In this document: positions 1-28,588 of the stretch, piece after piece
Layout of the letters: every line of letters begins with the position of its first letter
Position numbering within the stretch: the stretch's first letter is position 1
NCBI GenBank assembly: GCA_015232645.1
Contig: JADFZF010000016.1
Location: 1 to 33,465 of the forward strand
Source of the DNA: Magnetococcales bacterium
GTDB taxonomy: Bacteria > Pseudomonadota > Magnetococcia > Magnetococcales > UBA8363
Reading direction: 5' to 3'
Length of the DNA stretch: 33,465 nt
Made by a program: the position numbers and the translations under genes
Notes under the pieces: model-generated
Database searches by the model: none
What the model was told of the DNA's origin: nothing
Seen by the model: only the letters and a program-made list of their open reading frames with translations

Positions 1-1
1 C

Positions 2-40
2 GTTGTCCCTTCTTCGCAAAAACCGCGAAGAAGGGACAAC
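2..40. repeat. Perfect 16-bp hairpin, loop AAAAACC
   Basis: The arm GTTGTCCCTTCTTCGC at 2-17 is followed by the 7-nt loop AAAAACC (18-24) and an exact reverse complement at 25-40. No T-tract follows, so it does not look like an intrinsic terminator. A second hairpin 16 bp further on has a loop that begins with the same AAAAACC and is likewise closed by CGC/GCG. The GGCGCGCGCC palindrome at 44-53 separates them. The function is unknown; a REP-like intergenic element is one possibility. The element lies at the window edge, so more units may lie to the left. Confidence 0.8.
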
Positions 41-91: not shown

Positions 92-148
92 TCCGTATAA
101 AAGGGCGCGTGAAAAGCAAAGTCAAAAACAAGAAAAAAATCAAAACCC

Positions 149-180
149 TGGGGGCAATCCCCCAGACCCCTTTTTTCTTT
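149..180 (+). terminator. Terminator-like hairpin with T-tract, repeat copy A
   Basis: CTGGGGG and CCCCCAG pair around a CAAT loop at 149-166. ACCCC and a T-rich run (171-180) follow. On the plus strand this has the form of a rho-independent terminator, although the ACCCC spacer between stem and T-tract is unusual. The 26 bases at 151-176 are identical to 281-306, so this is also one copy of a short dispersed element. No gene is seen upstream on the plus strand inside the window. Confidence 0.5.
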
Positions 181-280
181 CAGAAATTTATTATATGGAT
201 CCGTACACTGTCAATGGTTGTCTCAAATTAATGAAAGTAACAAAGTGGAAATAAACAGTTTAAAGTAAATTAACGCTTAT

Positions 281-346
281 GGGGCAATCCCCCAGACCCC
301 TTTTTTTTTTCAATCATTCCAAACCGGAGGGGATCTGAATTGTTGC
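281..346. repeat. Dispersed intergenic element, copy B
   Basis: This begins with the same hairpin core (GGGG, CAAT, CCCC), ACCCC and T-tract as the copy at 149-180, then continues with a further segment reading roughly AATCATTC, AAACCGGA, GGGA, CTGAAT. The stretch 291-346 aligns without gaps to 26547-26602 with 49 of 56 positions identical. The two copies are 26 kb apart in unrelated contexts, which marks a dispersed intergenic repeat rather than a gene-specific terminator. No coding potential is seen in it. Confidence 0.7.
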
Positions 347-26375: not shown

Positions 26376-26525
26376 TATAAGGATGTTATTTATCTCTGTA
26401 GACCCCTTTCAAGGCTATTTGTGGCTGGACAAGTGGCTCAATCAACAAACAGATTCATGGAATGGGCCGGGAAAGGGGGAAGGGCGAGAATGGACAAACC
26501 TTTGGGGCTTCGTCCGGGGCCGAAT

Positions 26526-26551
26526 CTGGGAAGGGACTCATCCTTTCCCAG
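26526..26551. repeat. Hairpin preceding dispersed element copy C
   Basis: CTGGGAAGG (26526-26534) pairs with CCTTTCCCAG (26542-26551) around GACTCAT, with one bulged T. ACCCC and the T-rich tract of copy C follow directly. Position and downstream context equal those of the hairpins at 149-166 and 281-294, but the stem sequence differs. Confidence 0.55.
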
Positions 26552-26602
26552 ACCCCTTTTTCTTTTTAATCATTCTAAACCGGAAGGGAGCTGAATAGTT
26601 AC
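26547..26602. repeat. Dispersed intergenic element, copy C
   Basis: It aligns without gaps to 291-346, 49 of 56 positions identical: CCCAGACCCC, an 11-base T-rich tract, AATCATTC, AAACCGGA, GGGA, CTGAAT, GTT. It ends 4 bp before the dedA stop codon on the minus strand. Read on the plus strand, hairpin plus T-tract is terminator-like, but no plus-strand gene precedes it. On the minus strand it is the A-rich complement, so it is not an evident terminator for dedA. Confidence 0.7.
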
Positions 26603-26606
26603 GATT

Positions 26607-27227
26607 TTATTTAAGAACGGTCTCGACCGTTGGTTCGTTCTTTTTCCCACGCCACCATTTGATCAGCGCAACGACAATGACCATCAGGACCACCCCCCCT
26701 AAAACATACATTTCATATTCCTTGACCCGTCCCAGAAAGACTTCCACCGCCTTGCCGAAAAAATATCCGGCGGCACCGAACGAACCCGCCCAAATGAACG
26801 CCGCCAAAAAATTGAGAACCATGAACCGGAAAAAGGAAAGCTGGCTCAAGCCAAAGGCTACGGAGCTGATATTGCGGACCCCATAAAAAAAGCGGTAGGA
26901 CAGAATAAACCATGCATCCCAGCGATGAATCAGATCCAAAACCCGATTCAAGCCCTCGGTCCATTTCCCTTTCTTTTTCAGGAACCATTCCCGCCCCAAC
27001 TTCCGCCCGATCCAGAAATAGGCCTGATCGCCCATGAAGGTCCCGACGGCAGCCACCAGCATGGTCAACCAAATATCGAAATATCCTCGGGATGCCAGGT
27101 ACGCCGCCACCAGCAGGACGGTTTCCCCTTCCACAAAGGTCCATGCAAACAGGATCAGATAGCCATATTCACGAAGTAGTTCTTCCACGACCGTACCCGC
27201 ATTCGAGCTGAATTCATTGAGAGTCAA
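26607..27227 (-). CDS. DedA-family membrane protein
   Basis: This is a DedA/SNARE-associated (VTT) family protein of about 206 aa. It shows LREYGYLILFAWTFVEGETVLLVAAYLASRG, then the amphipathic AAVGTFMGDQAYFWIGRKLG segment and FFYGVRNISSV; further hydrophobic helices lie at the C-terminus, which ends in basic residues. DedA proteins are involved in lipid carrier and membrane homeostasis. The start is uncertain: the frame is open to an ATG at 27344, inside the end of rsmB, but the family begins near residue 40 of that frame. I therefore chose a TTG at 27227, although it lacks a clear ribosome-binding site. It follows rsmB on the same strand. Confidence 0.8.
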   Translation of the reverse strand: MTLNEFSSNAGTVVEELLREYGYLILFAWTFVEGETVLLVAAYLASRGYFDIWLTMLVAAVGTFMGDQAYFWIGRKLGREWFLKKKGKWTEGLNRVLDLIHRWDAWFILSYRFFYGVRNISSVAFGLSQLSFFRFMVLNFLAAFIWAGSFGAAGYFFGKAVEVFLGRVKEYEMYVLGGVVLMVIVVALIKWWRGKKNEPTVETVLK

Positions 27228-27253
27228 AACGCCAGCGCTGCTATGAATGATCG

Positions 27254-28588
27254 TCAGGCCAAGCGTACCAATCTTGCGGCAAAAAATCCGTCCATGTCCG
27301 AAATTCCGAGCCTGGTTTGAAAAGCGCCATGAGGCGTGATCCATCCGGAGTCCAGACCATCCGCTTGCAGGGAAACGGGATCATGACGCCATTGGGGATG
27401 ATCAGCGAGAAACCGGTTGACCACCTCCTGGTTTTCCTCCGACTCCATGGAACAGGTCGCGTAAACCAATATCCCACCAGCGGCAACTCTGGGGGCAGCC
27501 GCTTTCAGGATGGCCAGTTGCTCCTGCTGCATGCGCGCTGGGTCTTCGGGTTTTCGCAGCCATTTGATATCGGGGTGACGGCGAATGATCCCGGTACCGG
27601 TACATGGTGCATCCACCAGAACCCGGTCAAAAGTACGTCCATCCAGAAGTCCGGGGTCGGTCATATCCCCCGCCACGATTTCGACCCCCTGAATCCGCAG
27701 CCGGCGTAGATTTTCCCGCAATCGTTGCAAGCGGGCCTGACTTTTATCGAGCGCGGTCAATTGTACCTGAGCGCCGGACTGTCGCGCCAGATCTGCCAGA
27801 TGGGCGGTCTTGCCGCCAGGAGCCGCACAGGCGTCGAGAATCCGATCCCCCGGTTGGGGATGCAATAATCGTGGAATCCACTGCGCCCCTTGGTCGGCGA
27901 CGGCAAAGGTTCCCCGATCATAACCGGGCAGATCCTCCACCCTGCCGCCGGCATCCCAAATCAGCGCATCCGGTGTATCGGGACAGCGTTTCGCGCCCGC
28001 CTCCAGGAGCTGCTTCCAGGTGATTTCCCGGGCAGGAGGGTCTCCATGCAGCCGAAGTGTCAATGGTGCCGGTCGATTGCCTGCTTCCAGGCGTCTGCGA
28101 CATTCCAGCTCTCCTTCCCGCTCCCACCATCGCTTGACCAACCACAGGGGAAAAGAGGTGGCTACCGCCAATCGTTCCATGGGATCGGCGATGGCGTTCA
28201 ATATCGTACTCTGGTCCTTCGATACCGCTTGACGCAACACCGCATTACAAAAGGAGGCCATGGCCCTTTCCCTGGAGTTTTTGACCAGGGTGATGGCTTC
28301 AAACACCGCCGCCCGAGCCGGTATCCTGAGAAACATGGTCTGGTAGAGGGCCGTCACCAGAACGGCCTTGATGAAGTGTCGTTTGGCGGGCAATGGTCGG
28401 GACATGCAACTGGAAACCATGGCATTCAATAAGGAATGGTGCCGCAGCGATCCCAAGGCAATCTCACGGGCTAACCCTTTGTCACGGACTGAGAGCCCTT
28501 GCAGCCAATCATGACCACGCAGCTGCATGCCGTCATGCATGACCTGCATAAGCGCCAAAACCGCGCGCCCGCGAGGACCAGTATTCAT
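27254..28588 (-). CDS. rsmB: 16S rRNA (cytosine(967)-C(5))-methyltransferase
   Basis: This 444-aa enzyme makes m5C967 in 16S rRNA. The N-terminal NusB-like RNA-binding domain (about 1-135) is followed by the methyltransferase with SAM motif DACAAPGGKT (about 252-261) and the two catalytic cysteines of RsmB enzymes: C329 in DAPCTGTG and C379 in YATCSMESEEN. The ATG at 28588 has GGAG 5 bases upstream and is preferred over an ATG six codons earlier (28606). It is 40 bp from the engB stop on the same strand. Confidence 0.95.
   Translation of the reverse strand: MNTGPRGRAVLALMQVMHDGMQLRGHDWLQGLSVRDKGLAREIALGSLRHHSLLNAMVSSCMSRPLPAKRHFIKAVLVTALYQTMFLRIPARAAVFEAITLVKNSRERAMASFCNAVLRQAVSKDQSTILNAIADPMERLAVATSFPLWLVKRWWEREGELECRRRLEAGNRPAPLTLRLHGDPPAREITWKQLLEAGAKRCPDTPDALIWDAGGRVEDLPGYDRGTFAVADQGAQWIPRLLHPQPGDRILDACAAPGGKTAHLADLARQSGAQVQLTALDKSQARLQRLRENLRRLRIQGVEIVAGDMTDPGLLDGRTFDRVLVDAPCTGTGIIRRHPDIKWLRKPEDPARMQQEQLAILKAAAPRVAAGGILVYATCSMESEENQEVVNRFLADHPQWRHDPVSLQADGLDSGWITPHGAFQTRLGISDMDGFFAARLVRLA

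Follow-up and report, generated by a model that had tools for sequence, protein, structure and literature searches.

The repeat that begins at position 281 of this stretch of DNA (33,465 nucleotides, referred to as the window) very probably belongs to a MITE family of Magnetococcales that is mobilized in trans and in which one palindromic core is found across several IS families. Each full element combines two parts—a foldback core, in which no gene is encoded, and outer terminal inverted repeats that resemble those of an autonomous IS. A transposase supplied by an IS elsewhere in the cell would bind the outer ends and move the element. Transposition would leave a target duplication of the length typical for that IS, as is seen at several sites. 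A covarying foldback core common to MITEs whose ends come from three or more identified IS families is, as far as could be found, apparently new, although MITEs, foldback elements, and REPs are each known. A search of the literature, incomplete in coverage and weak as evidence, returned no covarying core shared by MITEs of several IS ends. Literature on repeats in Magnetococcales yielded only unrelated papers, and none turned up that also named insertion sequences and transposases.

Architecture of the copies in the window

The first-pass annotation had aligned positions 291–346 with 26547–26602 over 56 bp, without gaps and with seven mismatches, and this alignment is borne out. Both matches stop exactly at a transposon end, which is CTGAATTGTTGC at 335–346 and CTGAATAGTTAC at 26591–26602. 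The 56 bp are not the element itself; they comprise only the tail with its hairpin and, beyond it, the IS66-type outer end of a larger, modular foldback element. The hairpins that had been described in front of the two copies are present with altered extents. The first is GGGG-CAAT-CCCCC at 281–293 instead of a stem at 281–294, and the second is a 12-pair stem at 26525–26552 instead of a bulged stem at 26526–26551. The first hairpin lacks the CT before its G run because another repeat abuts there. A third, partial copy had also been noticed, and positions 151–182 indeed match 281–312 with 97% identity over 32 nt. The 10-mer CCCAGACCCC occurs three times in the window versus 0.19 expected, a count that is reached in none of 100 shuffles. 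All features are compiled in Table 1.

Table 1. Modules of the repeat family and of its neighbor in the window
Positions	Strand	Feature	Characteristics
1–40	+	Inner hairpin, right half of the large foldback core	13-bp perfect stem, CGC-AAAAACC-GCG loop
42–111	+	Second stem module of the core	Stem 57–69/79–91; conserved flanks GGCGCGCGCC ... GGGCGCGTG
148–182	+	Right tail of the core (third copy of the first-pass annotation)	Hairpin CTGGGGGCAATCCCCCAG, ACCCC, T-tract
183–254	+	Outer arm, terminal-repeat type D	Reverse complement of TTAATTCTACTTTGTYACATTCATTAA; joined to the core tail
255–280	+	End of another repeat, outside the core family	AAATTAACGCTTAT; abuts the GGGG hairpin foot
281–346	+	Second right-end fragment	Hairpin without CT foot, ACCCC, T-tract, AATCATTCC, IS66-type terminal repeat 335–346
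26525–26602	+	Further copy, degenerate right end	12-bp stem 26525–26552, CCCC-T-tract, AATCATTCTAAACCGG, IS66-type repeat 26591–26602

Two right ends of IS66-type copies, both truncated, lie in the window together with the right half of a large core. As these copies have no left end, target duplications were read on elements elsewhere. Herein, positions 1–182 represent this right half including its tail; the first base of the window falls inside an element, and the left half of the core lies beyond the contig end. An earlier reading of 183–280, the 98 bp between the tails, as a single insertion with a 32-bp target duplication was dropped because 183–254 recurs as an outer arm on other cores and 255–280 is the end of a different repeat.

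Only 5 bp separate the terminal repeat of the copy at 26525–26602 from the stop codon of a minus-strand ORF (26607–27344), and no left end of this copy was found. The two genes that flank it are adjacent in no relative; relatives in which both could be located carry them on separate contigs. Just left of this copy, at 26500–26522, lies a GGGGCTTCGTCCGGGG hairpin that belongs to another palindrome family.

The foldback core

In the core, two hairpin/ACCCC/T-tract tails in inverted orientation enclose a variable, self-complementary interior. Its constant shell, read outward, is CAAAACCCTGGGGGCAATCCCCCAGACCCCTTTTTTCTTTYAATAATTTT and occurs on both sides in inverted orientation. The intact copies of the own genome (G000:C44 in L008/L020; L029) are about 455 bp long and fold onto themselves along nearly their full length, and the complete units of relatives contain cores of about 126–592 bp. 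Complete elements measure about 0.2–0.6 kb and carry no gene. A long core folds with a z score of −25.0, and a short core with one of −12.2.

Although the stems change sequence, they stay paired. Among 16 aligned homologues of the second stem module, 96.8% of the cells are paired, and 38 double changes are counted versus 13 ± 3 in shuffles (0 of 500 as high), a test that kinship of the copies can inflate. In the long core type, a CGC-NNAAACC-GCG loop is carried by 10 different perfectly paired 13-bp stems; the loop of positions 1–40 is of the type shared by these homologous copies, and the intact elements at L008/L020 and L029 likewise support its assignment to the core. The hairpin is hence presumably kept either by selection for folded DNA or by arm-to-arm copying. 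The covarying stems represent a natural data set in which long hairpins kept by selection can be set against arm-to-arm copying. A further suggestion, which we hold tentatively, is that a selfish passenger core survives by riding unrelated IS transposases, its covarying stems being selected because a host or transposition protein recognizes hairpins.

A search of the window against Rfam matched only a tRNA elsewhere in it, and five element loci gave no match. The search for a gene-bearing version of the core yielded two intervals of 0.6–6 kb between inverted tails, both without a transposase. Inside some cores (L110 4444–5036 and L032 1187–1524), a further palindrome is repeated in tandem; CTGGAGGACTTCGTCCCCCAGACCCCCTGTGGGGG and its relatives form a nested repeat family.

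Outer ends and autonomous insertion sequences

Outside the core, four kinds of end are recognized—those of IS66, ISAs1, and IS5 and a fourth type D. Autonomous IS66, ISAs1, and IS5 copies with these ends were located in relatives. The IS66-type end (type A) is GTAAC[TC][AG]TTCAG, and perfect 8-bp duplications surround elements with this end at L079, L121, L149, and L061. A 72-bp element at L033 has IS66-type ends and a perfect 8-bp duplication as well, but no core. The autonomous IS66 at L174 encodes a transposase of 472 aa (NF033517, 300 bits) between the same ends, GTAACTATTCAGCACCCCCC. In the own genome, a MAG that is 74% complete, no full-length IS66 transposase was found, only a fragment scoring 26.7 bits. 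The IS5-type end (type B), GGGCGTGTTGACATTCRATAA, is present on the cores of L080, L102, and L111 and at the IS5-like transposase loci L269 and L262. The ISAs1-type end (type C), CAGGGCAATCGCATTTGAAATT, occurs on the cores of L075, L160, and L074, around which duplications of this type were read from the flanks (perfect 9 bp, 9/10, and 8/10, respectively). At L261, an autonomous ISAs1 with the same type C ends is enclosed by the perfect 10-bp duplication ACTGGTTTTG. Type D, which forms the outer arm in the window, is also found on the cores of L255, L256, L258, L259, and L260.

Since the same core lies between the ends of different transposase families, it probably acts as a passenger, which several transposon families would have acquired by capture or by recombination. 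Of 229 core tails collected, 124 show none of the four terminal repeats. Many copies are therefore fragments or move in some other way; the absence of a recognized end is consistent with decay and with half-deletions such as the one at L087.

Turnover between sibling genomes

For 19 elements, the flanking sequences were looked up in the siblings G003 and G004, which are ~91–97% identical in their longest shared stretches. At two sites (L151 and the first copy of L069), the element is present in one sibling and absent from the other. Together with terminal repeats that are accompanied by target duplications, this insertion polymorphism bears out the MITE-like character that had been suggested for the 56-bp repeat. 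Three further sites are common to both siblings and differ in the interior or at one end (L158, L170, and the first copy of L087), and at the second copy of L087 only the right half is left in G004. Several of the polymorphic sites are not clean insertions, with an end missing or a flank altered.

A further site, L125, bears on the strongest alternative, namely that the core is an independent mobile palindrome. It would have entered the MITEs of several IS families by separate insertions, and the transposon ends around it would be chance hosts and not vehicles. At L125, orthologous small IS5-type MITEs contain the core in G004 and not in G003, as expected for such an insertion; the core-less site of G003 could, however, equally be a deletion. 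The roughly one-half of tails without a recognized terminal repeat would also fit an independent core, as would the core tails in other families of the order, which mostly lack these terminal repeats. Against this, no constant duplication or insertion motif was seen at the core boundaries, the stretches examined contained no version of the core that bears a gene, and the terminal duplications enclose MITE and core as one unit. We regard an independently mobile core as possible, yet clearly less probable than a core that travels inside the MITE.

At two loci, only the right flank is shared between siblings, with the core at the junction (L156 versus L212, G003:C172/G004:C142; second copy of L069 versus L213). 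These junctions represent either element-mediated rearrangement or MAG misassembly. All genomes compared are MAGs, in which such repeats can cause misassembly.

Distribution and gene context

The first-pass annotation had proposed a genome-wide repeat family, for which many intergenic copies were to be sought in the genome and its relatives. With the 66-nt query 281–346, 44 matches are obtained in the own genome, and these cover both the partial copy at 151–182 and the degenerate one at 26525–26602. The exact tail 20-mer is found in all eight members of the genus, at 325, 286, 106, 101, 42, 36, 12, and 3 copies per genome, and its reversed control is found in none. Complete cores lie between ORFs in 35 of 41 cases, although ORFs make up 85% of the sequence; the remaining six overlap ORF calls, and several such ORFs are located largely inside the element itself. 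The proposal of a genome-wide family is thus upheld by copy number, by presence throughout the genus, and by intergenic position. Some of the other families of the same order show weaker matches, and among the matches listed, every named carrier from the genome collection is a Magnetococcales MAG. Viral contigs contain no exact match to the repeat, and plasmids contain no match.

The hairpin followed by a T-tract could also be a repeated transcription terminator, its copies being kept because they end transcripts. The tail does score as terminator-like. In the genus, elements avoid divergent gene pairs (2/34 versus 92/455, p = 0.04) and are enriched between convergent ones (14/34, p = 0.04); 18 of the 34, however, lie between tandem genes, as expected. 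In the genus, the tails are arranged symmetrically, as inverted pairs within elements that have transposon ends; ACCCC lies between stem and T-tract, and the T-tract of the copy at 26525–26602 is oriented wrongly for the minus-strand gene that this copy follows. Moreover, use as a terminator would account for retention of copies, not for their spread. As an explanation of the repeat, a multiplied terminator is improbable. The earlier statement that the tails are not ordinary terminators probably holds within the genus, where tails are symmetric and gene contexts mixed. In other families of the order, single tails may act as terminators: of eight whose upstream gene could be identified, seven follow a gene on the same strand. 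Ending transcripts may thus bring some additional advantage, above all to these single tails. Single tails of the form CTGGGGGATGAATCCCCCAGACCCC-T-tract were observed downstream of same-strand genes at L039, L043, L045, L048, L057, L058, and L059, all in other families.

REPINs, too, show palindromes paired in inverted orientation around a variable spacer, many copies, and intergenic position; in them, inverted REP hairpins are moved by a REP-associated tyrosine transposase (RAYT) as single-stranded hairpin DNA that is cut and copied. Of 11 PF01797 loci in the genus, however, none has a tail within 1.5 kb, and the own genome contains no PF01797 match. REPs are defined by GTAG/CGTC tags at one side of the palindrome (PMC3733652); no conserved GTAG or CGTC tag lies beside the hairpin here, and its conserved neighbor is AAAACCCTGGGGG...CCCCCAGACCCC. 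Target duplications of the IS66 and ISAs1 types indicate DDE transposases instead. A REPIN origin is therefore very unlikely, and membership of the core family in the REPIN/RAYT system was rejected on the PF01797 loci; the REP-like label that had been offered beside the MITE-like one is given up for want of a RAYT gene flanked by the tail.

The best 30 of the 44 own-genome copies include 26 at ≤400 bp from a contig end, with the hairpin side toward that end, and the own MAG is therefore often broken inside the repeat. That the repeats are assembly artefacts of fragmented MAGs, as this position and the two loci with a single common flank in siblings might suggest, is extremely improbable, since complete elements with unique flanks and perfect target duplications lie inside long contigs of several independent MAGs, and the contig ends are a consequence of the repeat and not its cause. 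Part of the fragmentation of these Magnetococcales MAGs is probably due to the repeat family, which may also give rise to rearrangements.

Comparison with known systems

MITEs normally derive from one IS. Like the known MITEs that are moved by IS transposases (NEMIS/Correia, RUP, ERIC, and MITEAba12), the Magnetococcales elements are short, gene-less, and foldable, with many intergenic copies, terminal inverted repeats common to autonomous IS, and target duplications. They differ from these in a core that is shared across IS66, ISAs1, IS5, and a fourth end type, and in interior stems that are hypervariable but covarying. One palindromic module between the ends of several DDE families suggests that the interior, and not the ends alone, can be selected and spread.

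With REPs, REPINs, and BIMEs, the elements share palindromes, inverted pairs, high copy number, and extragenic position. They have, in contrast, neither a RAYT flanked by the repeat nor a GTAG/CGTC tag, their cores are longer (130–590 bp), and they possess outer DDE-transposon ends. Eukaryotic foldback elements (FB/Galileo) resemble them in very long self-complementary arms of variable length and in suspected ectopic recombination; the Magnetococcales elements, however, are bacterial, only 0.15–0.6 kb long, and bounded by the ends of bacterial insertion sequences. Tn3-derived inverted-repeat miniature elements (TIMEs) and mosaic non-autonomous transposons are likewise described as modular, non-autonomous, and defined by transposon ends (PMC4133298). 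Their ends come from one transposon family, whereas the Magnetococcales interior carries those of several.

A second repeat at the hairpin foot

The repeat whose end occupies 255–280 of the window abuts hairpins throughout the own genome. Each of the 19 genomic copies of TTAACGCTTATGGGG that were retrieved with a pattern including GGGG runs into a G-rich hairpin foot, in nearly every case that of the tail hairpin. The copies comprise the one in the window, one in G000:C408 (L241, 1500 and upstream), and 17 at other places in G000. IS1272-type insertion uses a stem-loop as target (PMC5678879), and the second repeat resembles this type by ending exactly at the hairpin foot in 19/19 copies. The second repeat, which is possibly a mobile element that targets hairpins, ends in AAWTTAACGCTTAT; at L241, an unassigned gene (...YHLTDKGRSIITALITARNASAESLTKLAA) terminates a short way within the repeat.
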